In this document: in pieces, positions 6,127 to 49,176 of the stretch
How the letters are laid out: each line of letters opens with the position of its first letter
Position numbering within the stretch: the first letter of the stretch is position 1
Source of the DNA: Candidatus Latescibacter sp.
GTDB lineage: Bacteria; Latescibacterota; Latescibacteria; Latescibacterales; Latescibacteraceae
Reading direction: 5' to 3'
Assembly: GCA_030692375.1 (NCBI GenBank)
Contig: JAUYCD010000063.1
Span: 1-50,131, forward strand
DNA length: 50,131 nt
Notes under the pieces: generated by a model
Seen by the model: only the letters and a program-made list of their open reading frames with translations
What the model was told of the DNA's origin: nothing
Databases searched by the model: none
Program-made: the position numbers and the translations under genes

Positions 6127-6146
6127 TGGTTATCGATTAATCCTGT

Positions 6147-6242
6147 AGATCCTGAAACGAGTTCAGGATGACACATGTCATGCCGAACTTGTTTCGGCAT
6201 CTGAATATTCATCATGTCATGCCGAACTTGTTTCGGCATCTG
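6147..6242. repeat. Family A hairpins, partial copy with a duplicated arm
   Basis: Holds the ATCCTGAAACGAGTTCAGGAT hairpin, then two consecutive copies of CATGTCATGCCGAACTTG followed by TTTCGGCATCTG. Terminal repeats are missing. It sits directly in front of the lipid A acyltransferase operon. Confidence 0.75.
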
Positions 6243-10436: not shown

Positions 10437-10458
10437 TTTCACGCAGAGACGCAGAGAA

Positions 10459-10589
10459 AGTCTGAACCATGATTTTCATGATTCAAAGATTGGCCCGATT
10501 TTCATAATTAATTCATTATGACCATCTTTGAGTCTATATCTTTTCATCATCTTTTATCATGCGAATCACACGAATCAGTGGTTCAGACG
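10459..10589. mobile_element. Family D inverted pair
   Basis: Left arm AGTCTGAACCATGATT and right arm AATCAGTGGTTCAGAC face each other. The right arm is preceded by CTTTTCATCATCTTTTATCA. It fills the gap between the convergent nadA and Omp85-like genes, after TTTCACGCAGAGACGCAGAG just past the nadA stop. Confidence 0.75.
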
Positions 10590-12884: not shown

Positions 12885-13021
12885 ATACATGACGACATAA
12901 ATAATTGTGCATGTTTTGAATGGTTAGATGCCGAAACAAGTTCGGCATGACACGTGTCATCCTGAACTCGTTTCAGGATCTATTTTGAAAAGAAAAGCAA
13001 TAAAATATATCGTCATATATA
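12885..13021. mobile_element. Family A MITE-like element, both ends present
   Basis: ATACATGACGACATAAATAA on the left, and TATATATGACGATATATTTT read inward from the right edge. The core is the two hairpins and ATGACACGTGTCAT without the 48-bp insert, giving the simplest form of the element (about 137 bp). It lies between two minus-strand envelope genes. Confidence 0.82.
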
Positions 13022-24174: not shown

Positions 24175-26136
24175 TTACGGCCGGTTTCTCGTTCTCGGCC
24201 CGTAGACCTCGTCCGGGGCGCCGACCTCGAGTGCGCCGAGATCGGGAGCTTTCCCGGTGAAGTCGTCGTTGATGTTGGGAAGTATGCACCCGGCGTCAAC
24301 CGCCTTCGCGTCCGGCTTGAGGCGGAAATCGAAATCCTTCGGATCGTAGATCGTGTTTGGTTTTTCAAAATCGGCTTTCGTCACATTCCGGAAGATATCG
24401 TAATCGACCAGGATGCCGTGTTCTTCACGGCCGGTCGCCTTGAAGAATTCTTCGGGGGTTTTGAACGAACCGGTGAGCGGATTTTTCAGCTCGTAGTCGA
24501 TGGTTTTTCCCTCGCCGGGCGAGCGCCATACGAACTGGACCTCCACATCTTTGGTGGGGCGGTAGCCGTCGTAATCGAACGTCGTTGAGCTTGTATAGGT
24601 TGTCACCCGGAGAATGGGGCGTTTGGGAGCGTCCTCGCCGAGGAAGAGATTATTCCGGAGCGTGACATTCTGGAAGGGGCTGCTCGTCGTCCATTCCGAG
24701 CAAAGCGTGTTGTGGAAGGTCAATATGCCGACCGGGTAGATGTTGTATTTGAATGCGCCGCCGGTAGGCACATGGTATGCGATATTACGGATGAAATACG
24801 CCGGGCCGCCGTAGATGGGCTGCGCGGAGTAGGCGTGAGTACCCGCGTTGAACCCGCGGTTTTTGAAGACCCGGATGTTATGCGCCGCGCAGTCGGCCTC
24901 CACGAAATCGTCGGACATCATATAAAAGTCATTGTTGTAAAAGTCGATGGAACATACTTTCCAATCCTCGTTTTCCGGCGGGCCCTGTTCGGTGATATCT
25001 AGGGCATCGTGGAAATAGGCGAGGTAATTGTGGCAAACCACATGCCCCTGGCCATTGATATCGATGCCGATGAAAGAAACAAGCGGTGCGCCTAGCCTCT
25101 GTTCCGCCCATGTCTCTTTCCAGCCGGGAAGGCTGATCTTTTTCCCCAGGATAACATTGTCGGCAATATAGAAATTCTTTGAACCGCCGTACTGGGCGTT
25201 GATCCCGCATCCCACATTTTCCATGCGGCAGTTGCGCACCACCAGCCCCTGGCAGCCATGGGCAAACCGTAGCCCCGCCATGATAGCCACATCGCAGTTT
25301 TTGATGGTGATGTTCTCGATAAAGGTGTAATCGGCGTATGTGACATCGAACATCCGGTATACACCGTCTGCGTCGAATATCGCCTCGCCGTCGCCAGCGC
25401 CGCGAATGACAATGGGCTTATCCGGAGTACCGCTCTTGGTCAGAACATAGGCGCCGTGGAAATGCATCCAGAGCGGCTCGTAATATTTCTTCCGATCGGA
25501 TTTGTATAATCCGGCATGGACGAGGATGATGTCTCCGGGGCGGGCGGCGAATTCTCCTCCGGTGCCCCAGAGGCTTTTCCCCGGTCCGTAATAGGCATCC
25601 ATTACGCCTACATAGGAGGGCTCCTGCTTCGGGCCTTTGTAATCGGGCGGGTAGACATGGCGCACCCGGCCTCCCTCGAACGCTTTCGGCTCCGGGCGGG
25701 TGGTCACGGTGACCAATTGTGTAGCTTGACCTTTCACTCCGTCAGGGTCTTTCATGACAAACCGGCACTCGTACGTCCCGCCCGGCTCAAGGTTGAAGAT
25801 GCTCCCCGCGAACCTGTTCGGAGCGGTGAAGTCCATGCCCACCACCTTATGAATGATCTTCTCGCCGTTCATACGCAGGAGAGGAAGCGCCTGCTTCCAT
25901 GAGGTTGTTCCTTTCTTACGGTAGGTTACCTCAACAGATGAGTTCCGGTTGTCGTCGCCCTGGATATTCCATTCGAATCCGGCGCAGAGGAGCGTGGGCG
26001 GCTCCACCTCAAACTTTCCGGGTGTGACCGCATTCGCAGGCTTTGCTGGAGCGGCGGTTTGTGGCGCGGCCTGTGCGGAATGAGCAAGCACAAACAGGGA
26101 CACCAGCACGGTCAATATCATTTGGTATTGTTTCAT
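24175..26136 (-). CDS. Secreted right-handed beta-helix protein, paralogue 1
   Basis: 653-aa exported protein. The signal peptide ends near HSAQA (residue 23). Residues about 35-145 look like a fibronectin III-type module (FEVEPPTLLCAGFEW.. to VTVTTRPEPKAF). From about 210 to 480 are parallel beta-helix rungs with CDVAIMAGLRFAHGCQGLVV and Asn-rich turns, the layout of polysaccharide lyase- or pectate-lyase-like enzymes. A catalytic set was not identified. The C-terminus holds GKAPDLGALEVGAP, a common closing sequence of such helices. GGAGGAG precedes the ATG at 26136; longer starts lack such a site. It shares most of its length with the neighbouring gene at 26219-28156. Confidence 0.75.
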   Translation of the reverse strand: MKQYQMILTVLVSLFVLAHSAQAAPQTAAPAKPANAVTPGKFEVEPPTLLCAGFEWNIQGDDNRNSSVEVTYRKKGTTSWKQALPLLRMNGEKIIHKVVGMDFTAPNRFAGSIFNLEPGGTYECRFVMKDPDGVKGQATQLVTVTTRPEPKAFEGGRVRHVYPPDYKGPKQEPSYVGVMDAYYGPGKSLWGTGGEFAARPGDIILVHAGLYKSDRKKYYEPLWMHFHGAYVLTKSGTPDKPIVIRGAGDGEAIFDADGVYRMFDVTYADYTFIENITIKNCDVAIMAGLRFAHGCQGLVVRNCRMENVGCGINAQYGGSKNFYIADNVILGKKISLPGWKETWAEQRLGAPLVSFIGIDINGQGHVVCHNYLAYFHDALDITEQGPPENEDWKVCSIDFYNNDFYMMSDDFVEADCAAHNIRVFKNRGFNAGTHAYSAQPIYGGPAYFIRNIAYHVPTGGAFKYNIYPVGILTFHNTLCSEWTTSSPFQNVTLRNNLFLGEDAPKRPILRVTTYTSSTTFDYDGYRPTKDVEVQFVWRSPGEGKTIDYELKNPLTGSFKTPEEFFKATGREEHGILVDYDIFRNVTKADFEKPNTIYDPKDFDFRLKPDAKAVDAGCILPNINDDFTGKAPDLGALEVGAPDEVYGPRTRNRP

Positions 26137-26218
26137 TTGTCTCCTCCAATTTACGCAAAAGCGCATCAGGGTTGGGAAATGAATGGTTACCACTCGCACA
26201 CTTTATGGGGGTGAGGGC

Positions 26219-28156
26219 TTACGGCTTTAATCCCGTCCGCGGCCCGTACACCTCTTCCGGGGCGCCGACCTCGAGTGCGCCGAGATCGGGAGCTTTCCCG
26301 GTGAAACCGTCGTTTATGTTGGGCAGTATGCAACCGGCGTCAACCGCCTTCGCGTCCGGCTTGAGACTGAAATCAAAGTCCTTCGCGAAGAAAACCTGAC
26401 CGGGGTTGTCCGGGTCGGCCTTCGGTACCTTCCGGAAGATATCGTAGTCAACTGTAATCCCATGCTGCTCCTGGCCTGTGGCCTTGGTGAATTCCTCCAG
26501 GGTCTTGTATGACCCGGAGAAGGCGTCCTTGCCGAGGGCATAATCCATGGTTTTGCCCGGGCCGGGAGATCTCCAGCGGAACTGGAACTCCACTTCCTTG
26601 TTGGGACGGTAGCCGTCGTAATCGAACGAGGTGTAGCTCGTATAAGTGCTGACGCTGAGAATCGGCCTTTTGGGGTAGTCTTCTCCGAGGAAGAGATTGT
26701 TCCGGAGGTGCACATTGGAGAAAGGCGGGCTGGTTGTCCACTCCGAACAGAACGTGTTGTGATAAAGGAGGACTCCTGCAGGATAGATATTGAACTTTAA
26801 CGCTCCTCCGGACGGTATGTGATAAGCGATATTACGGATGAAATAGGCAGGACCGCCGAAGATGGGCTGGGCCGAATACGCGTGCTGCCCGGCATTGAGC
26901 CCCCGGTTACGGAATATCCGCATGTTGTGCACGCTGCTGTCGCCCTCGATGAAATCATCCGCCATCATATGCAGGTCATTGTTGTAAAAGTCGAAGGAGA
27001 CGGCTTTCCATTCCTCCTTTTCCGGCTGGCCCTGCTCGGTGCAATCGATGGCATCGTGGAAGTAGGCGATATAGTTGTGGCAGACCACGTGTCCCTGGCC
27101 GTTGATATCGACCGCGATAAAGGACTTGAGGTCGGACAATGGGCCGTATTTTCCCCAGTTCCCCGTCCAGCCGTGCAGGCGGTTCTGGTCTTCACGGCCC
27201 AGGATCACGTTGTCGGCGATGTAGAAATTCCGGCTTCCGCCATACTGGGCGTTGACCCCGCATCCCACATTTTCCATCCGGCAGTTGCGGACTACCAGTC
27301 CATTGCAGCCGTGGGTGTAGCGCAGTCCTGCATACACTGCAACCTCGCAGTTTCTGATGGTCAGCCCCTCGATATAGTTGTAATCTGCGAACATGACATC
27401 GAACATCCGGTACACTCCGCCGCCGTCAATGATCGCCTCGCCATCGCCTGCGCCGCGGATGACTATTGGTTTTTCCGGTGTACCGCTTTTGGAGAGCTGA
27501 TATGCGCCGTGGAAATGAAGGCCCAGAGGCTCATAGTATCTGATGCGCTCTGACTTGTACAGCCCTGCGTGAACAAGGATAATGTCGCCGGGCTGTATAT
27601 TCGCGCTGCGCCAGAGACCTTTTCCCGGCCCGTAATAGGCTTCCATGATGCTGACAAAGGAAGGCTCCTCCTTTTTGCCCTTGAAATCCGGAGGATAAAC
27701 GTGGAGCGTACGGCCGCCGGAGAAAGCTTTCGGCTCCGGACGGGTAGTTACGGAGACAATCCTTGTCGCATTCCCTTTGACTCCATCGGGGTCGGACAGC
27801 ACAAACCGGCATTCATACGCCGTTCCCGGTTCGAGGTCGAAAATGCTCCCCGCAAACATGTTTGGCGCGGTGTAGTCCATTTCCACCGCCTTGTATACGA
27901 CTTTCTCGCCATGGAGACGCATGAGCGGGAGCGCTTTTTCCCATTCGGCGGCGCCCTTTTTATGGTAGCTGACTTCCACCGAGGCGTTACTGTTGTCGTC
28001 GCCCTGCATGAGCCATTCAAACCCGGCGCAGATAAGAGTCGGCGGCTCCACTGTGAATTTTCCGGGAGTGATCGCATTGATCGCGGCGAAAGAGAAGGTG
28101 GGGGAGAGGATGGCGACGAGGGAGAGAACAAGGATGACGGATGTTATACGGTTCAT
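26219..28156 (-). CDS. Secreted right-handed beta-helix protein, paralogue 2
   Basis: 645-aa exported protein, close paralogue of the preceding gene. A signal peptide (to about SFAA, residue 25) is followed by the same fibronectin-like module (FTVEPPTLICAGFEW), the heme-free beta-helix core with RNCRMENVGCGVNAQYGGS (a 19-residue run shared with its neighbour apart from one position), and the GKAPDLGALEVGAP ending. The 82-bp gap to the next gene suggests one transcript with paralogue 1. The two differ mostly at the start and in the helix loops, where substrate contacts usually lie, so they may attack related parts of one glycan. Polysaccharide lyase activity is inferred, not shown. Confidence 0.75.
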   Translation of the reverse strand: MNRITSVILVLSLVAILSPTFSFAAINAITPGKFTVEPPTLICAGFEWLMQGDDNSNASVEVSYHKKGAAEWEKALPLMRLHGEKVVYKAVEMDYTAPNMFAGSIFDLEPGTAYECRFVLSDPDGVKGNATRIVSVTTRPEPKAFSGGRTLHVYPPDFKGKKEEPSFVSIMEAYYGPGKGLWRSANIQPGDIILVHAGLYKSERIRYYEPLGLHFHGAYQLSKSGTPEKPIVIRGAGDGEAIIDGGGVYRMFDVMFADYNYIEGLTIRNCEVAVYAGLRYTHGCNGLVVRNCRMENVGCGVNAQYGGSRNFYIADNVILGREDQNRLHGWTGNWGKYGPLSDLKSFIAVDINGQGHVVCHNYIAYFHDAIDCTEQGQPEKEEWKAVSFDFYNNDLHMMADDFIEGDSSVHNMRIFRNRGLNAGQHAYSAQPIFGGPAYFIRNIAYHIPSGGALKFNIYPAGVLLYHNTFCSEWTTSPPFSNVHLRNNLFLGEDYPKRPILSVSTYTSYTSFDYDGYRPNKEVEFQFRWRSPGPGKTMDYALGKDAFSGSYKTLEEFTKATGQEQHGITVDYDIFRKVPKADPDNPGQVFFAKDFDFSLKPDAKAVDAGCILPNINDGFTGKAPDLGALEVGAPEEVYGPRTGLKP

Positions 28157-29656: not shown

Positions 29657-31825
29657 TCATTTCCCCAGCCCCGCATCGGCGTGATTCACCACGAACACCG
29701 AAGGCTTCCCTTTCGCCCCCAGTTTATTCACCGCCCGTACCAGAAGGGAATTCTTCCCCGACTGGAGGAGCCATGTCCAGCGCTCGCCCACCTGCTTCCA
29801 GCCGGTGTCGTCCGCATTCACCTCGAAATGGCTGAAATTGGGAGTGTAGGTCTCGAAGCGCAGGAACAGGCGGTCGTTGCCGAATCCCTGCGTTGCGTCC
29901 ACATGGACTTTGTTGAGATCGGGCCACATGTCGCGGGGACGGTCGGTGTGCCAGCGGTAGTGACGTTTGGGCGGGGTTTTTCCGTCATACCAGTTGACGA
30001 AACCCTGGAGCGGCCAGTCCATGCTGCTCCCATCGGTAACCGGCCTGGGCAGGGGTTGTTCAAACCAGTTGTTGCGGGTCACAAAACGCACGAAAACCCC
30101 GTTGAGGAAACCGGTGAGATGAGTTCCCTGGTAATTGCTGTTGGAGCCGCGTTTTACTGGAGGCTCTTTGCCCTCGATGAGCTTGTACTCGAAACTGCTG
30201 TCTTTCCCCCATTCGATGGGGCGATCCGGAAAGTAGTAGTCGAGAAATTTTTCATGAAGCTCCAGGAGGCTCTGCGGTTCCACGGTTTCTTTGTCATAAT
30301 CATAGCAGTTGCCCCATGTATAGGCGTCCATGAATATCCATTTCCCGAACTCGTCGTTCCAGACCTCCATGATCGCATGACCGCCGCCGTTCACCTGCCG
30401 CGCCTCCCAGCCGTAGGACTGGAACATGGCGCTGAGGAGCAGATTGAACTGGGTGCAGTATCCCCCGGCGCCGGCGCGGTCGATACGGTCGAGGATGGAA
30501 AGCCCGTCCCAGGCCGGATACCCGGGAAAAGCGTCGCTCTGGTGCCACCGTTTGGTCACATAATCGAGAAGTTTCACCTGGGCGTCGAATTCCGTGCGGC
30601 TGCCGCCGATTACCTCATCGAGGTTTTCCCTTCGGCGCAGTTCCCTGAATTCCGGGCGGTCCCAGGGTTCCCATGTAAAATCGATGGAGGAATATTTGAT
30701 GAAAGGATTCTCCTGTTTGACCACATGGATATTAGGGTGCAGGGGAACGCGCTGCTCCAGCTCCGCGGTGACCGCGGCTGATTTGATTATGGGACTCCGG
30801 AGCGGATTGACGGTGGATAAAACAGCCTTGAACTGGACATAGCGGCGGAGGGGCCCCCGGTGCTGCGAAGCAGTATCCGGGGTAACATTGAGGTCGGCGC
30901 CTCCGGTTTCGAAATCGAGCGAGGGTTCGTTTCCAATCGCCCGGTACGATTCCCATTCCGGCGAGAACGGCTGCGGATTGGCGCCTTTCCTGAGGAAGTA
31001 TTCTATTTTTGTTCCTTCCGGAGTTTCCGCCCGGATGGCGAGCCTCATCTTCTTTATCTCGCGGAGGGGGACGATAAAATCCTGCGAATCGCCCTTCCAC
31101 AGGTCTATGACCGGGCTTGCCAGCCAGCCGGACTGCTCATACCGGTCGAGGCTGAGCCGTACCGTATACTCGGCTCTGGTCTTTCCGTCGGGGCCGAAAG
31201 GACTTTCTTTCCATGTCTTGCCATCGTCGAAGGACTTCCAGGATGTTTCTCCGGCATGGGAAGGGTCGCCGCCGCCCTGCGGGAAATCATCCGCCCTTGG
31301 GGTGAAAATGAGCCAGCCTTCATCCTCCGTTTTTGCATCAAGGCAGGCAAAGTCGATGGTGTTCTTCCCCTTCTGGAGCCATTTAGCGGGGAATTCCAGC
31401 CAGCGGTAGTAGTCGATTGTCTGTTTGGTTTCCGGGTGGTCATACTCGGTCTCGTGCCCGTTGATAAAGAACTTCAGGGGGTGCTTCAACGGTTTCCCAT
31501 AGGCGGGCATGATCACAATCCACGCGGAGAAAGCGCGGGGATCTTCGAGGAAGAAGATTTTTCTTCCCCGGTTTTTCCCCCAGACAGCATCCAGGTTGGG
31601 GCCTTTTTCACTGACCCCCACCCCCGGGCTGTCATTCTCGATGAGCGTACGGTTGAACAGGCTCACCCCTCCCGAAGGGTGTTTCATGAGCGTCTGCATG
31701 AAACCGGCGTCATAGACCATTTCCGCACCTCCGCCCCAGGAAGTTTTCACCGTTTCGGAGAGTGCAGGGGAGGTGATGAGAAATGATAGGACGATGAAAA
31801 GCGTCTTTTTCCAATAAGCATTCAT
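29657..31825 (-). CDS. Secreted transglutaminase-like protein, paralogue 1
   Basis: 722-aa exported protein (signal to about ALSET). The N-terminal half holds two beta-rich blocks: a carbohydrate-binding-like part with KWLQKGKNTIDFAC and a second part beginning near WLASPVIDLWKGDSQDF. The transglutaminase-like core is around residues 420-520: Cys457 in AGGYCTQFNLLL, His in GGHAIMEVWND and Asp in WIFMDAY, the Cys-His-Asp triad. The C-terminal beta domain ends in RFETYTPNFSHFEVNADDT. Bacterial transglutaminase-like folds are often peptidases or ligases. Substrate unknown. ATG at 31825 gives the cleaner signal peptide; an upstream GTG lies inside repeat DNA. Paralogue at 35213-37354. Confidence 0.72.
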   Translation of the reverse strand: MNAYWKKTLFIVLSFLITSPALSETVKTSWGGGAEMVYDAGFMQTLMKHPSGGVSLFNRTLIENDSPGVGVSEKGPNLDAVWGKNRGRKIFFLEDPRAFSAWIVIMPAYGKPLKHPLKFFINGHETEYDHPETKQTIDYYRWLEFPAKWLQKGKNTIDFACLDAKTEDEGWLIFTPRADDFPQGGGDPSHAGETSWKSFDDGKTWKESPFGPDGKTRAEYTVRLSLDRYEQSGWLASPVIDLWKGDSQDFIVPLREIKKMRLAIRAETPEGTKIEYFLRKGANPQPFSPEWESYRAIGNEPSLDFETGGADLNVTPDTASQHRGPLRRYVQFKAVLSTVNPLRSPIIKSAAVTAELEQRVPLHPNIHVVKQENPFIKYSSIDFTWEPWDRPEFRELRRRENLDEVIGGSRTEFDAQVKLLDYVTKRWHQSDAFPGYPAWDGLSILDRIDRAGAGGYCTQFNLLLSAMFQSYGWEARQVNGGGHAIMEVWNDEFGKWIFMDAYTWGNCYDYDKETVEPQSLLELHEKFLDYYFPDRPIEWGKDSSFEYKLIEGKEPPVKRGSNSNYQGTHLTGFLNGVFVRFVTRNNWFEQPLPRPVTDGSSMDWPLQGFVNWYDGKTPPKRHYRWHTDRPRDMWPDLNKVHVDATQGFGNDRLFLRFETYTPNFSHFEVNADDTGWKQVGERWTWLLQSGKNSLLVRAVNKLGAKGKPSVFVVNHADAGLGK

Positions 31826-31848
31826 AATGGCATGATTTCCATTTTTTA

Positions 31849-31904
31849 ACCTCACCCCGACCCTCTCCTAATTAGGAGAGGGTGCCCGAAGGGCAGGTGA
31901 GGTT
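31849..31904. repeat. Family B repeat, short copy
   Basis: ACCTCACCCCGACCCTCTCC and GGAGAGGGTGCCC..GGTGAGGT, a single-hairpin version of the family. It lies between the transglutaminase-like gene and the glycosidase-like gene on the minus strand. Confidence 0.75.
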
Positions 31905-31911
31905 TCCATTC

Positions 31912-33240
31912 CTATTTTCTCGGATCCGGTATATCCTGGCCGTCCTTGAAGATCACCCGGACAAGCTCCCCGTCTCCCGGCGCCAGGGTGAACGATACCG
32001 CCTGATAGGGGGGACGGTAGGTATGGTACAGCTCGAAGAAGCTGAGCTCCTTCGGGGTCAGGGCTTTGCGATTATAGGTTATATACTGCTTAACATCCGG
32101 GGGGATAGTGTCGATGTTATAAATCTTTTTATGATCCCGGGTATCTTTTCCTTCGCTCAGCGGAAGAGTTTTCCATTCCCCGGTTTGCTTATCGAGCATC
32201 TCGACTGAATTGACCTCCTGCAGGAACAACCGAAACTGCAGGGTTGCTTTCCGGGCAGTTTTCCAATCCTTGTTGACAGCCAGGACATATTCTTTCTTAT
32301 CCTTATCCCGGAATGTACCCATCATCAGGCCTTTTTCCATAAGCTGCACCCAATGGTCGGGAGTGGTCTGCCGCGAACCTTTGGGTACGGGAGGTGTATG
32401 GAAAACGCCGGTCGAGGTAAGGGGGAAAAGAACCGGCCCCAGCCGTTTCAACTCATGGTTGATCCCGGCGACCTGCCTGCCGGTTTCGTTCATCTCCCCC
32501 GTCTGTTTGTCGAAGAGGAGCGGGCTGAAAAACCAGAGGATTCCTTTTGCGCCGTAGGCGAGTGTGGCATAGATGTTCAGGCGGATTTTCTTTTCGTTGT
32601 CCGGCGGAGTGATCCAGTTGCGGTCCATGGAGCCGGGCACGTTTCTCTGGGTATTCACCTCGCGCCAGACAGTGAGCGGGAGGCCTGCGGCGATGGCTTC
32701 GTCACGGTGCTGTTCGAGTTTCACATACAGGGGATCCTCGACCGAGAACCACCTGTATATGCCGCCGTACCACCACGGGTACTCGTCGTAGCTGAGAAAA
32801 TCGGGCTGCACGGTGTCGATGAAAAGCCTGATCCAGTGCCCGGCTTTCTGGTTTAGGTTCACGAAGGTCAGATGGGTCGGGTCCGCCGCGTGGTATGCCT
32901 TAACCGAGTCTGCGGCTTCATACAGTTGTTTCAGGGAGATTGGCTCGTCCATGATGTCGTATCCCCAGACATCCGGGTCGCCCTTAAGCCGCGCGGCTGT
33001 CTCGAAACCGGGATGAGGAATCATGAGCTTGACTCCATACTTTTTGCAAAGGGCGAGCTTGTCGGCGGGACCGTGGAGCGTATTGAAATCTGCCTCCGCG
33101 AGCTGTTTCACCATGTTCTCGGTCAGGGCGGCAGGTGAACTATCCCCGTAGGTGAAGATCATGAACTCCGGGAGATCCTTCGCCTGTGCGGTGGCAGCTA
33201 TTATGAACGTAATAAGAATAAATAGAGCTATTTTCCGCAT
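31912..33240 (-). CDS. Secreted TIM-barrel glycoside-hydrolase-like protein
   Basis: 442-aa exported protein (signal to about AQAKD, residue 21). Residues about 25-300 have (beta/alpha)8 barrel features with VWGYDIMDEP (93-100, Glu99), which matches the acid/base position of clan A glycoside hydrolases, and LSYDEYPWW (about 148-156). The second half (LAVNKDWKTARKATLQF..) is a beta-sandwich that often caps such barrels. A nucleophile near WREVNTQRN is possible but unproven. It may be a glycosidase acting on fragments released by the neighbouring beta-helix proteins. It is on the same strand as the transglutaminase-like gene with one repeat between them. Confidence 0.65.
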   Translation of the reverse strand: MRKIALFILITFIIAATAQAKDLPEFMIFTYGDSSPAALTENMVKQLAEADFNTLHGPADKLALCKKYGVKLMIPHPGFETAARLKGDPDVWGYDIMDEPISLKQLYEAADSVKAYHAADPTHLTFVNLNQKAGHWIRLFIDTVQPDFLSYDEYPWWYGGIYRWFSVEDPLYVKLEQHRDEAIAAGLPLTVWREVNTQRNVPGSMDRNWITPPDNEKKIRLNIYATLAYGAKGILWFFSPLLFDKQTGEMNETGRQVAGINHELKRLGPVLFPLTSTGVFHTPPVPKGSRQTTPDHWVQLMEKGLMMGTFRDKDKKEYVLAVNKDWKTARKATLQFRLFLQEVNSVEMLDKQTGEWKTLPLSEGKDTRDHKKIYNIDTIPPDVKQYITYNRKALTPKELSFFELYHTYRPPYQAVSFTLAPGDGELVRVIFKDGQDIPDPRK

Positions 33241-33281
33241 GTGTTTCCTCCTTTCTTTGCTTTCCCTTTTATGCCTTTATA

Positions 33282-33480
33282 CTTGAGACATATTTTATTG
33301 GGTTTCTTTCAAATATAGATGCCGAAACAAGTTCAAAACCAGCGCATGACACGTGCACTTCGACAAGCTCAGTGCTCGGTCAGCGGACTCTGAGCTTGTC
33401 GAAGAGTCTGCTATATCCTGAACTCGTTTCAGGATCTTAACACTCAAAACATTCGCAATTATTTATGTCGTCATGTATAG
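33282..33480. mobile_element. Family A element carrying a nested second hairpin
   Basis: Left end ACTTGAGACATATTTTATTG, damaged first hairpin (GATGCCGAAACAAGTTC), then at ATGACACGTG the palindrome is broken by an insert holding CTTCGACAAGCTCAGTG and CTGAGCTTGTCGAAG, a different repeat. After it come TCCTGAACTCGTTTCAGGAT and the right end to TTATGTCGTCATGTA. It shows one palindromic repeat inserted into another. Confidence 0.75.
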
Positions 33481-33499
33481 AACCCGCGATACTATGCCC

Positions 33500-34951
33500 T
33501 CATTCTCTTCTCTCGGATTCAGGGATATGGAACCGGAACATCGAAGGGCGTATGAACCGGGGATTTTTACGGTCTCCCGAGAATCCGCCGCCGACATAGA
33601 AGAAGATAGACTCCCCTTTCTCATCCATCTCAAGGCCGTAGGGCGCTCCGGCATTATACCCGTATTTCTGGAGGTAGAAGGCGTTCAGGAAGCCGAGTAC
33701 CTTCTTTTTCCCGGTCTGTGTGTCGTACTGGACTACCGGCGTCCCGAAATCCATGGCCCGCGAGCCGACTCCGGGCATATAGTAGATATAGCGCAGTTTC
33801 GGGCTCTGGCACATGTTCGCCGTGTAGAGACCCTCGCGCCCCCAGTTGGGGCCGATAAGCTCCGTGCGGTCCTCCGCCGGCCAGAACTTGAAAAACGCGC
33901 CGTTCTCGCTGAAACACCAGAAAGCGCCCCCAGCGGTTTTGTATTCCGTATGCGAGCGGATGGGATTGGGCCTGCCGTTTGCGGGGTTGGCCGGCGCCTT
34001 CGCCTTCATTTTCGTGAACACATTGTTCCGCTGCGTGTAGCTCACGAAATACTGCTCGCCGCGATACCGCTCGCCGCTGGGATACGTCACCGTATCCGTA
34101 GAGTAGAAGATGCCGGTGTTCTTGTCGAGCATGGTGCAGCGGCGGTGCCAGGAGATTCCGTGTTTGGGCGCTCCGGCGTAAAGAGTCCGGCGGTTTTTCG
34201 TGTCGTAGACGAACACCACGCCGTCTTCTTCGGCCACTGCGAAGAATATTCCCCGTTTCCAGTCATAGTTATAGTACGGCCATGAGGAGCCCTCAAGCGG
34301 GATGCCGAGGTTCTCCAGCTTTCCACTGAACACGTTGTAATGAAACAGATAGCTTCCCTTGTATATTGTATCCCACTCCTCCTTCGTTGGGAAAGGGCCA
34401 AAGTACGACAAAAACCACATGTTCCCCTGCGGGTCGATGTCCAGGTCGCCGTGTATCTTGGAGTCGGGGTAATCCTTCGGGGTCCACTTCATGGTCTTAC
34501 GGAGATCCACCACCATACGGTGGGTTTTCGTCCCGGGGTCGTAGCGGACGATGTAGGCGTTCCCGTTGTAAGCACGATGGTCGCCGATTGAGAAGTAGAA
34601 GCAGCCGTCCGGCCCACGCGTTACATCGCCATATCCCTCCCATATGCCGCCAACTCTGGAGTTGTCGCTGTAGAGAACCGGAAGGTACCACGGCTCGTAG
34701 CCCCGGATGATGCCGAAATCCACAATCGGCGCGGCAGTCGCTACCTCGAAATCGCGAAGTAAGGGGTAGTCAGCGGGAACGGCAAGGAAATCCGGAGAGG
34801 AGTCGGTGTACATCTTTCCGGTCAGGCGGATGTTCTGTTTGTCGTACTGTGTCTCCCATTGTTTCCATTCCCCGGCGCGGTTCGGAGTCTGAGAAAAGAC
34901 GGCTGCCGAGAGGGAAAACAGGAGGGCGGAAATGAATATTTTCTTGTACAT
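33500..34951 (-). CDS. Secreted beta-propeller protein
   Basis: 483-aa exported protein (signal to about AVFSQ). It is built of repeated blade-like units such as GYGDVTRGPDGCFYFSIGDH, DLDIDPQGNMWFLSY, FAVAEEDGVVFVYDTKN and YGLEMDEKGESIFFYVGGG, about seven in number. Such propellers occur in oligogalacturonate lyase-like proteins, in sugar dehydrogenases and in binding proteins; I see no decisive catalytic motif. GGAGG precedes the ATG at 34951, and the frame upstream is D-repeat DNA and was excluded. Its place among secreted enzymes suggests a glycan role. Function remains open. Confidence 0.68.
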   Translation of the reverse strand: MYKKIFISALLFSLSAAVFSQTPNRAGEWKQWETQYDKQNIRLTGKMYTDSSPDFLAVPADYPLLRDFEVATAAPIVDFGIIRGYEPWYLPVLYSDNSRVGGIWEGYGDVTRGPDGCFYFSIGDHRAYNGNAYIVRYDPGTKTHRMVVDLRKTMKWTPKDYPDSKIHGDLDIDPQGNMWFLSYFGPFPTKEEWDTIYKGSYLFHYNVFSGKLENLGIPLEGSSWPYYNYDWKRGIFFAVAEEDGVVFVYDTKNRRTLYAGAPKHGISWHRRCTMLDKNTGIFYSTDTVTYPSGERYRGEQYFVSYTQRNNVFTKMKAKAPANPANGRPNPIRSHTEYKTAGGAFWCFSENGAFFKFWPAEDRTELIGPNWGREGLYTANMCQSPKLRYIYYMPGVGSRAMDFGTPVVQYDTQTGKKKVLGFLNAFYLQKYGYNAGAPYGLEMDEKGESIFFYVGGGFSGDRKNPRFIRPSMFRFHIPESERRE

Positions 34952-34973
34952 GCAGGTAATTCCTCCTGAAAAT

Positions 34974-35205
34974 GACTGTCTGAACCAGTGATTCGCATGA
35001 TGTAAATGATACAAGATGATAAAAGCAATATCAACAGTAATTGCTCAATCAGATCCTGAAACGAGTTCAGGATGACACGTGTCATGCCGAACTTGTTTCG
35101 GCATCTATCTCCAAACATCAACTTCTTAATTGAATACTCTCAAGCTTGTTATCTTTTCATCATCTTTTATCATTTTAATCACACAAATCAGTGGTTCAGA
35201 CAATC
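34974..35205. mobile_element. Composite D-A-D element
   Basis: Left D arm (GTCTGAACCAGTGATTCGCA, then GATGTAAATGATACAAGATG) and right inverted D arm (CTTTTCATCATCTTTTATCA to AATCAGTGGTTCAGAC) enclose an A core: ATCCTGAAACGAGTTCAGGAT, ATGACACGTGTCAT and TGCCGAACTTGTTTCGGCAT at 35052-35106. Confidence 0.78.
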
Positions 35206-35212
35206 CTTCTTT

Positions 35213-37354
35213 TTATTCCCCGAACGGAGCATCGGCATGGTTCAGCACGAACGAGGACGGTTTCCCCTTCACCCCCAGCTTGCTGACCGCCCGAACCTTC
35301 AGGGTGTTCCTCCCTGACTGGAGGAGCCATGTCCAGCGTTCACCGGTCTGTTTCCAGCCGGTGTCATCCGCATTCACCTCGAAATGGCTGAAATTCGGCG
35401 TGTAGGTCTCGAATCGGAGGAACAGGCGGTCGTTGCCGAATCCCTGGGTTGCATCCACGTGCACAAGGTTCAAATCGGGCCACATGTCCTGCGGACGGTC
35501 TGTATGCCAGGCGTACTGGCGTTTTGGGGGCGTACGGTCGTCGTACCAGTTAATGTAGCCGTCCCAGGGCCACCAGGTATTGCCGTGGGTGAGAGGGCGG
35601 GGAGTGGATTTTTCATACCAGTTGTTCCGCGGTATGAGCCGCATGAATGCAGCGTTGGCAAATCCGCTCGTAATGACCTTTCCGAAATGACTTATGAGGA
35701 TCTTATCATTCGGGGTGGCGATGCCGCGCCTGACAGGCAGCGGTTTACCCGGAAGAGTATTTCTCCAGGGAATCATGTCGTTCATCCAGTCGATCGTGTG
35801 GTTTGGGAAATAGTAGTCCAAATAGAGTTTATGGAGCTCGAGCATGTCGAGGGGTTCGGCGGTGGCGGGGTCGTAGTTGTAATGGTCGAAAAACTCAGCA
35901 TCGAAGAAAATCCATTTCCCGTACTCATCGTTCCAAACTTCGATGACCTCATGGCCGATACAGTTAATCAGCCGCGCCTGCCACCCGTACGCCATACACA
36001 TCCCACCGAGGACGTTGGCGAACTGGATGCACATGCCGCCTCCGCCGCTGGTATCTATGCGTCTGAGAATGGAGAGGGCATCCCATCCGGGATATTCCGG
36101 AAGCGTCCCGCCGGGATACCAGCGCTTGAATACATAGTGCAGGAGCTTCACCTGGGCGTCGAACTCCGTGCGGCTGCCGGCGATGACCTCATCGAGGTTT
36201 TCACGTTTCCGCAGCTCGGAGAATTCGGGCCGGTCCCATTTTTCCCATTCCCAGGGGAGCGAGGAGTACGAAATCGGGGGATTGTCAGCTTCGACCACAC
36301 GTATGTTTTGGTGAAGCGGGACGCGCTGGTTGAGCTCGGCGGTGAGCTGCATCGACTTGATTACGGGGCTTTTGAGCGGGTTCTTCGTTGAGAGCACCAT
36401 GCGGAACTGCACATACCGCCGGTTGAGCGCCGCGCCGCCGGTCTCATAATCGACCGCCGCCCCCTGGCCGATGAACTGGTAGGGTTCCCATTCCGATGAG
36501 AACGGATCGGGATCGCTTCCTCTCCGGATAAAGCATTCCACCGTCGTTTCTTCCGGCGCCTCGGAACGCAGGGAGAATTTCAGCTTCCGAATCTCGCGCT
36601 GGGGGACGATTGTATCCTTCGCATCCCCCTTCCAGAGGTCTATGACCGGACTTGCGAGCCATCCGGTTTTCACAGAGCGGTCGAGGCTGAGACGGATTGA
36701 ATACTCTGCCGCTGTCTGCCCGAGGGGGCCGAAAGGGCTTCGTTTCCATGTTTCTCCGCCGTCCAGGGATTTAAACGAGGTTTCCCCCACATGCGCGGGA
36801 TCGCCGCCGCCGTCCTCGAATTCATCCGCGCGGGAAAGGTACACCTGCCATCCATCCTGCTCCGATGAGGCTTCCGGGCAGGAGAGGTCGATAGTGTTCT
36901 TCCCTTTCACCAGCCATTCCGCGGGGAACTCGTTCCAACGGTACATCTCACGGTTTTTTTTCTCATCCCAGGAATCGATCCGGGTGGGTTTGCCGTTCAC
37001 TTTCAGGGAAAGCGGGAATTTCCCCTTGCGGGAGACGAAGTAAACGAGCCATGCCTTGCGGGCGCGGGGATCCTCGAGGAAGAAAAGTTTCCTCGCCTGC
37101 TGCTTTCCCCATATGACATCGTTCGAGATTCCCTTTTCGCTCGCCCCGGAACCCGGGGAATCATTTTCCACAAGCTCCATGTTGAAAAGCTGGACTCCGC
37201 CTCCCGGCGCTTTCATAACCATGTGCATGAAGCCGGTTTCATAGACCTTGAGGGCATCGCCGCCCCAGGAGGTGGTGACCTTTTCCTGAGCGGGAGCGGA
37301 ACCACCTGAAAGGGAAAGCGCGATGACGATGGCCGTGTTCAGAAGGTATTTCAT
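35213..37354 (-). CDS. Secreted transglutaminase-like protein, paralogue 2
   Basis: 713-aa exported protein (signal to about SAPAQ, residue 23). Architecture as in the paralogue at 29657: N-terminal binding-like beta block with WLVKGKNTIDLSC, middle block with WLASPVIDLWKGDAKD, transglutaminase-like core with Cys442 in GGGMCIQFANV, His in CIGHEVIEVWND and Asp in WIFFDAE, and the shared end RFETYTPNFSHFEVNADDT. C-terminal regions of the two genes are near-identical in protein and very similar in DNA, the middle less so. The start at 37354 follows AAAAAAGGACACGGA. A D arm ends a few bases after the stop codon. Confidence 0.72.
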   Translation of the reverse strand: MKYLLNTAIVIALSLSGGSAPAQEKVTTSWGGDALKVYETGFMHMVMKAPGGGVQLFNMELVENDSPGSGASEKGISNDVIWGKQQARKLFFLEDPRARKAWLVYFVSRKGKFPLSLKVNGKPTRIDSWDEKKNREMYRWNEFPAEWLVKGKNTIDLSCPEASSEQDGWQVYLSRADEFEDGGGDPAHVGETSFKSLDGGETWKRSPFGPLGQTAAEYSIRLSLDRSVKTGWLASPVIDLWKGDAKDTIVPQREIRKLKFSLRSEAPEETTVECFIRRGSDPDPFSSEWEPYQFIGQGAAVDYETGGAALNRRYVQFRMVLSTKNPLKSPVIKSMQLTAELNQRVPLHQNIRVVEADNPPISYSSLPWEWEKWDRPEFSELRKRENLDEVIAGSRTEFDAQVKLLHYVFKRWYPGGTLPEYPGWDALSILRRIDTSGGGGMCIQFANVLGGMCMAYGWQARLINCIGHEVIEVWNDEYGKWIFFDAEFFDHYNYDPATAEPLDMLELHKLYLDYYFPNHTIDWMNDMIPWRNTLPGKPLPVRRGIATPNDKILISHFGKVITSGFANAAFMRLIPRNNWYEKSTPRPLTHGNTWWPWDGYINWYDDRTPPKRQYAWHTDRPQDMWPDLNLVHVDATQGFGNDRLFLRFETYTPNFSHFEVNADDTGWKQTGERWTWLLQSGRNTLKVRAVSKLGVKGKPSSFVLNHADAPFGE

Positions 37355-37410
37355 TCCGTGTCCTTTTTTTAGTGAAGTTATATATTGCCCTGTTCCCGGT
37401 TGAACCGTAT

Positions 37411-37800
37411 GTCTGAACCGCGGATGATCAGGATGAATGGATGACCGGGATGAAAGATTGCTTTTCGAAAAGATACAAAGATAGTCTGAACCACTGATTC
37501 GCATGATGTAAATGATAAAAGATGATACTTCTCCGATAAACAATTCAAGAATGTATTGTCATCGACAAATGCCTAATCAAGTTCGGAATGATGTATTCCA
37601 GGAGCACAGGATTATTGCTCCGGCGAATAAATATTGATTCCAATACTTGGAATAGATGCCGAAACAAGTTCGGCATGACGTCATCCGATGTCACTCTTTA
37701 ATTACCGGAGCAATATCGAGGCTTATACAAAACACTCATTCCTTAATTTTTCATCATCTTTAATCATATTTATCATACACATCAGTGGTTCAGACAATCC
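37411..37800. mobile_element. Composite D-A-D element with an extra D remnant
   Basis: A degenerate D unit (TGTCTGAACCGCGGATGATC) starts at 37411. The full left D arm runs from 37482 (AGTCTGAACCACTGATTCGC), and the inverted right D arm ends at 37800 (CATCAGTGGTTCAGACAATC). Between them are a degraded A hairpin near 37565 and a clear one at 37655-37680 (GATGCCGAAACAAGTTCGGC). The 476-bp gap holds no gene. Confidence 0.75.
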
Positions 37801-45902: not shown

Positions 45903-46284
45903 AAAGTCTGAACCATGATTCATGGGATGAAAGGATTGCCTTGATTGAAAGATTGTCTGAACCATGATTCGTAGGATTAAAGGATTACCTTGATTGAAAC
46001 GAAAAAAATCAGGATAATCTTGAGCCAATTGCAAAAGTCATATTATTTTACGAAGCCCCCTTACTGTCCTTTGGACATCCTTCCCCCTGAAGGGGGCAGG
46101 ACACGGCTTCATCGTGCCTGCGAAGCAGCAAAGACTGTGGAGCATCGACTTCCCTTGCCCCCCATTGGGGGGAAAGGGACTGAGGGTTAGGGGGCTAAAG
46201 TTAACAATTTGCCTTTTTTTAGTATAAAAACGACTTTTGCAATTGGCTCTCTTGTAATCATGTAAATCAAGGTTCAGACAATAT
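45903..46284. mobile_element. Composite D-C-D element with 18-bp perfect terminal repeats
   Basis: Two direct D units (AGTCTGAACCATGATTCATG.. and TGTCTGAACCATGATTCGTA.., 45905 and 45955) lead into an inner element with perfect 18-bp ends GAGCCAATTGCAAAAGTC (46022-46039) and GACTTTTGCAATTGGCTC (46232-46249). Its core is GCCCCCTTACTGTCC.. and ..GGACTGAGGGTTAGGGGGC. An inverted D arm (AAATCAAGGTTCAGACAA) closes it. No protein is encoded. The inner element is 228 bp, MITE size. Confidence 0.82.
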
Positions 46285-46322
46285 GAGCAAACAAGACTAT
46301 TGACTTCTTTCCGAAAATCGAT

Positions 46323-49050: not shown

Positions 49051-49140
49051 AGATTGTCTGAACCACTGATTCGTGTGATTAAAATGATAAAAGATGATGA
49101 AAAGATAGTCTGAATCTCTGATTCGTGTGATTATATTGAT
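49051..49140. repeat. Tandem direct D arms
   Basis: Two direct copies of the D arm: GTCTGAACCACTGATTCGTG and GTCTGAATCTCTGATTCGTG, each followed by an AT-rich GATTAAAATGATAAAAGATG-like tail. No core element or inverted partner is seen before the next gene. Confidence 0.7.
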
Positions 49141-49176
49141 AAAAAATGAAAAAAACTTGTCAGGCGAAACATTGAG

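Follow-up and report, generated by a model that had tools for sequence, protein, structure and literature searches.

D arms in the window and across the genome

The 50,131-nucleotide stretch of DNA analysed here (the window), one of the 273 contigs of a 3.91 Mb genome, carries four units in which two copies of a short repeat, the D arm, converge on one another. Unit 1 (34978..35201) consists of convergent ACTGAT/AGTGAT-type arms with outer ends of about 50 nt and a loop, and nested within it is an A composite hairpin (35051..35107), while the convergent arms of unit 2 (37484..37795) enclose one intact A half-element (37651..37680, + strand) and one degenerate copy (37564-37593). Unit 3 (45955..46279), with arms of the ATGATT/TTGATT type, holds an E-C-E element (46022..46249) composed of inverted GAGCCAATTGCAAAAGTC arms and a GC-rich C core, and an extra tandem D arm of the ATGATT subtype lies at 45906..45950 (+ strand). 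Unit 4 (10460..10588) pairs mixed arm subtypes around neither an A nor an E core and is abutted by CACGCAGAGACGCAGAGAAA (10440..10459, + strand), which resembles the arm of another subfamily of GxxExxY, the protein family discussed below. The units, the A hairpin and the E-C-E element are listed without a strand. Arms of the ACTGAT type lie at 34978 and 37484 and those of the ATGATT type at 45906 and 45955. The remaining arms, all on the + strand, are a solo arm of the GCGGAT/CAGGAT subtype (37411..37459), which is the type found at the GxxExxY gene G000:C214, and a tandem pair (49056..49099 and 49108..49151) for whose first member no convergent partner was found. All four units fold more strongly as RNA than shuffled sequence, with z scores of -10.9 for unit 1 (34972-35207), -10.2 for unit 2, -9.4 for unit 3 (45948-46286) and -5.0 for unit 4.

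The sequence-only reading of this DNA had D arms bracketing A hairpins twice, a C element once and an unrelated centre once. All four are indeed present as exact convergent pairs; the C block inside unit 3, however, is central to a separate E-C-E element and is not a core of D. The window also contains large paralogous genes at 24175-28156 and 29657-37543 (repeat families D3-D10, D16 and D17). The paralogs at 29657-31855 and 35213-37543 were considered as an internal empty site and rejected as their flanks could not be aligned.

Across the genome the motif GTCTGAACCANTGATT, with up to two mismatches allowed, has 123 matches (62 forward, 61 reverse) against none for the reversed pattern. Arms were then called in a 1.16 Mb sample of 81 pieces which were mostly picked for D motifs and are biased accordingly, giving 229 D arms compared with three for the reversed sequence. 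Neighbouring arms less than 600 bp apart were convergent in 46 cases, divergent in one and tandem in 32 (binomial p 7e-13), and the excess of convergent over divergent neighbours indicates that D-D is a unit. Approximately 40% of units are only 86-117 bp long, which leaves hardly any space for a core, and count as core-free D-D. That inverted arms had come to lie around other repeats by chance was rightly judged unlikely, and the D-core-D arrangement is discrete with core-free counterparts as had been proposed. The opposite picture, of arms that are solitary and randomly oriented, holds halfway by count since 133 of the 229 arms lie outside any detected convergent pair within 1.5 kb, but clearly not by orientation. 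Within units of this genome the left and right arms resemble each other only slightly more than expected (0.607 vs 0.566), an excess which is not convincing given a maximum of 0.643 over 5000 permutations.

Nested A and E-C-E elements

In the A element two halves in inverted orientation, GATCCTGAAACAAGTTCAGGATGACA and GATGCCGAAACAAGTTCGGCATGACA, make up a composite hairpin, with copies in the window at 35051-35107, 12925-12981 and 6146-6201; the 1.16 Mb sample contains 262 half-matches forming 102 close inverted pairs. E-C-E is likewise a discrete element, of approximately 150-240 bp with its own inverted arms, and its copies (window 46022-46249, L014, L160, L163, L189, L196 and L201) occur both alone and within D units. 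No gene was found consistently inside A or E-C-E units in this genome.

A lies inside 12 of 46 D-D units and in none of 92 outer flanks of equal length (Fisher p 6e-7), and E lies inside four units. A reading of D as a composite transposon with A and C as its cargo could draw on this enrichment, however at most 16 of the 46 units hold A or E, core-free D-D exists, 242 of the 262 A matches lie outside D-D in the 1.16 Mb and E-C-E stands without D in five other places of the genome. We consider this reading scarcely tenable, and D as a carrier of A and C was rejected on these counts and is largely refuted. The earlier suggestion that D is a composite unit holds in so far as other elements are found within D more often than in its outer flanks, but carrying or targeting A and C is not the main role of D. 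Since only 20 of 262 A matches fall within D-D and E-C-E occurs without D, the nests reflect independent repeats inserted into each other, and the A and E-C-E cores are nested independent insertions and not D's own parts.

The GxxExxY gene between converging arms

The genome of the window has four GxxExxY genes (PF13366/TIGR04256) and all four lie between converging D-type arms whose subtype differs from gene to gene: TGTCTGAACC(A/G)GTGATGCGCGTGATT at L032, GTCTGAACCGCGGAT...CAGGAT at L030, TGTCTGAACACGATT...GGATT at L031, where an E-C-E element separates the gene from one arm by insertion, and GACATGATTTACATGATT/AATCCTGTCTAA arrays, which have diverged further, at L029. In order to score such flanks elsewhere we took the best local alignment of the upstream flank with the reverse complement of the downstream flank, with a threshold of at least 30. 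Among 46 GxxExxY loci sampled through Pfam from genomes of the window's phylum and Bacteroidota, 78% reached this score, compared with 0% of control intervals, 0% of shuffles and 2.6% of cross-locus pairings. A second set of 74 loci, found by similarity to proteins close to L031 and spanning Bacteroidota, Chloroflexota, Cyanobacteria, Nitrospirota, Calditrichota, Fibrobacterota, Parcubacteria and others, gave 62% against 2%, 0% and 17% respectively; the TGTCTGAAC ends shared within this set reflect the choice of queries close to L031. At a score threshold of 26, arms were missing at approximately 15-23% of loci in the two sets. Arm-flanked genes are also present in isolate genomes (Runella zeae, Spirosoma oryzae, Flavobacterium sp. 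11, Mucilaginibacter gossypiicola and M. galii) and in plasmid records of Sphingomonas parapaucimobilis (between fabD and fabG), Bernardetia and Bacteroides finegoldii. Arms were not clearly seen around GxxExxY in Prevotella, Treponema and Fusobacteria records, phage records contained no GxxExxY relatives, and several of the eight relatives in plasmid records had no clear inverted arms. Inverted arms thus flank the GxxExxY gene across phyla, and in the full units examined it is the only gene between them.

Some GxxExxY elements sit within operons (L112, L093, L100 and L342), where neighbours include apparent type I restriction genes in Flavobacterium, Runella and Thermophagus and the fabD and fabG genes in Sphingomonas. 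On a Gemmatirosa plasmid (L341) the flanks differ from other arms, the GxxExxY gene lying between long inverted blocks that contain GGACTGAAGAAGGACTGAAG units.

Profile scores clearly place the gene of the full-length element in the TIGR04256/PF13366 PDDEXK_3 family, with 141-143 bits against a curated cut-off of 35 and 138-143 against 22. Residues D69, E79, K81, Q93 and Y97 are invariant in 40 sequences, forming the motif D...ExK...QxxxY, as are G27xxE30xxY33. The D...ExK...QxxxY pattern is that of RecB/Cas4 nucleases. No credible relative was found in the PDB by sequence, and the best structural match to an AlphaFold2 model (pLDDT 94) is 4ic1, the SSO0001 structure (TMq 0.56, E 4.5e-4), followed at lower rank by lambda-exonuclease, MGME1 and AdnAB nuclease domains. 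Motif and predicted fold together suggest that GxxExxY is a RecB/Cas4-like PD-(D/E)XK nuclease. We know of no biochemistry of GxxExxY and found none in the literature searched.

Each arm consists of an end motif, of the TGTCTGAAC type in D's family and the AACCAC type in others, followed by two to five copies of a unit of approximately 9-10 nt. Of 70 arms, 81% have their best self-match at 8-11 nt compared with 34% when shuffled, and the spacing of GAT in arms of the window's own genome peaks at 9. The arm unit covaries with the GxxExxY protein (Mantel rho 0.54, with none of 2000 permutations as high; 0.51 without close pairs), a relationship that could arise in part without direct recognition, through the common inheritance of gene and flank. 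Copy number of arms also tracks the cognate gene. The G001-type arm has 16 matches in G001 and none in G000, and the G003-type arm has 35 in G003 against six weak, three-mismatch matches in G000; among 64 genomes of the phylum, high counts of the TGTCTGAACC type occur only in G000 and G002, both of which have a cognate GxxExxY gene (L031 and L038).

These observations bear on whether a RAYT (Y1 transposase) could be mobilising the arms as REP/REPIN sequences, with GxxExxY as a passenger. D-D hairpin doublets do resemble REPINs (PMC3116915) and a PF01797 gene is present in nine of nine genomes checked, including that of the window, so that co-absence cannot be used as a test. However, the flanks of seven PF01797 loci in six genomes lack any D-like motif and their inverted flanks, where present, are other REP-type palindromes, while D arms are tandem 9-10 nt units rather than a REP hairpin and vary with the GxxExxY protein. 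Because the REPs at PF01797 loci are of other kinds and D is absent there, RAYT was rejected as the driver, and we regard this explanation as decidedly improbable.

Mobility and relation to known systems

A Fibrimonadaceae genome contains two full elements (L116 and L120; 463 and 466 bp) which are 94.6% identical within unrelated flanks, the identity ending exactly at ATTGTCAGAACC and GGTTCTGACAA. Matches to the element number 80 in the same genome and fall almost entirely on the arms; as the arms are inverted copies of one another, many places match on both strands. Between ruvX and OMT in Mucilaginibacter a single site is, depending on the species, empty (1-120 bp), arms-only (L247), gene-bearing in either orientation (approximately 500-650 bp or more) or decayed (L235), and two protein/arm subfamilies occupy it. 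In the nearest occupied and empty pairs, L242/L084 (ruvX identity 92%) and L269/L256, the native spacer is replaced and not simply interrupted. Target-site duplications, which had been put forward as support for insertion as a unit, were sought at the outer D edges and none were found, with edge direct repeats overall not above shuffled pairings. Such a lack would also fit the REPIN/RAYT class. Movement of the element as a unit is well supported by these comparisons, although no excision or insertion event was observed directly.

At another Mucilaginibacter spacer L288 carries a GxxExxY element where a sister species (L292/L294) carries an unrelated ATTGCGAGGTACGAAGCAATC-type palindrome. In Fibrimonadaceae (L301, at approximately 1500 and 1963) the element seems to split a reading frame, which continues to its left and right (...HLINY / NYITAKDAAM...), and AACTAT stands at either side. 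This direct repeat was rejected as a duplication, being seen once and absent from the sister copy L120.

The main alternative left is a selfish or homing-type nuclease gene spread by host recombination at the flanking genes, in which the arms would be binding or protection sites and the gene-less units decay products rather than transposed copies. Replaced spacers without target-site duplications are in its favour, as is the single Mucilaginibacter site that two protein/arm subfamilies have repeatedly occupied, however L116 and L120 have unrelated flanks in one genome and more than 100 gene-less arms at many loci are too many for the decay of four genes, making this account unlikely. A further possibility is that the arms are host functional sites in intergenic space (terminators, operators or RNA hairpins) and that their association with the gene is regulatory. 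Although the hairpins are strong and arms occur directly after stop codons and inside operons, the lineage-restricted copy number, the presence and absence at one site, the nesting of other elements inside units and the duplication of a unit with sharp ends all argue against it and we give it very little credence.

We conclude that D is probably a REPIN-like miniature mobile element family whose helper is the Cas4/RecB-like PD-(D/E)XK nuclease GxxExxY, which we infer to drive movement. The D arms would be the terminal inverted repeats of elements whose full-length form, of about 460-650 bp, is an arm, the GxxExxY gene and an inverted arm, and most genomic copies would be non-autonomous, namely gene-less D-D hairpins, solo arms and units invaded by A or E-C-E. 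The protein may bind the repeated arm units, each of which at approximately 9-10 nt would span about one helical turn, and cut or process the ends as a duplex or hairpin; repair would then copy the element to a new intergenic site, leaving no target duplication and replacing the local spacer. The D-core-D units of the window would be copies lacking the gene, into which other repeats could insert without harm. The balance tips slightly towards a broader reading in which GxxExxY proteins are the helpers of an unrecognised multi-phylum class of mobile elements that rely on a stand-alone RecB/Cas4-like PD-(D/E)XK nuclease and no transposase and recognise arrays of ~10-bp units, and in which many anonymous intergenic repeats of bacteria (the AACCACAGAT..ACACAGAT, CGCAAAG, CACGAAG and TGTCTGAACCATGATT types) would be its ends and gene-less copies.

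No earlier account seems to connect repeats this common with the GxxExxY gene. The literature searched, which left most subscription journals and bioRxiv outside, showed no such link, so that priority is uncertain; it returned nothing relevant for the arm strings and only incidental use of the names GxxExxY and PF13366. The TIGR04256/PF13366 family has so far been annotated by motif and superfamily only, and our reading offers a concrete role and a ready test for a widespread family known only by its motif name, while tracing a set of anonymous repeats in bacteria to a single kind of element. Should the nuclease drive movement, this would be a mobile-element strategy without a known transposase, and the variety of arm units would amount to many matched protein-DNA pairs showing how a small nuclease reads a repeated site.

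Among known systems, GxxExxY shares with Cas4/RecB (SSO0001, 4ic1) the D...ExK...QxxxY motif and the predicted fold, but is only approximately 130 aa long with the GxxExxY helix motif ahead of the core, and at the loci examined its gene lies between inverted repeats and not in a CRISPR or RecBCD setting. Like the MITEs of DDE insertion sequences, D units are short and non-autonomous with terminal inverted repeats, and D-D corresponds to internal deletions of a gene-bearing parent; in contrast to MITEs they have neither a DDE transposase, none being present in the full units examined, nor target-site duplications, and the parent gene encodes a nuclease-fold protein of approximately 130 aa. Closest in working is REPIN/RAYT, in which short extragenic repeats form inverted doublets (Bertels and Rainey 2011, PMC3116915). 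D also forms inverted hairpin doublets at high copy (46 convergent vs 1 divergent; z -5 to -11 for the four window units) with a cognate gene near or between the repeats. The gene bracketed by D is GxxExxY and not a RAYT, no D-like motif having been found near the seven PF01797 loci. D is nevertheless not a member of REPIN/RAYT because its cognate gene encodes a different enzyme, by motif and predicted fold a PD-(D/E)XK RecB/Cas4-like nuclease and not a Y1 tyrosine transposase, and its arms are tandem 9-10 nt units that vary with the GxxExxY protein.
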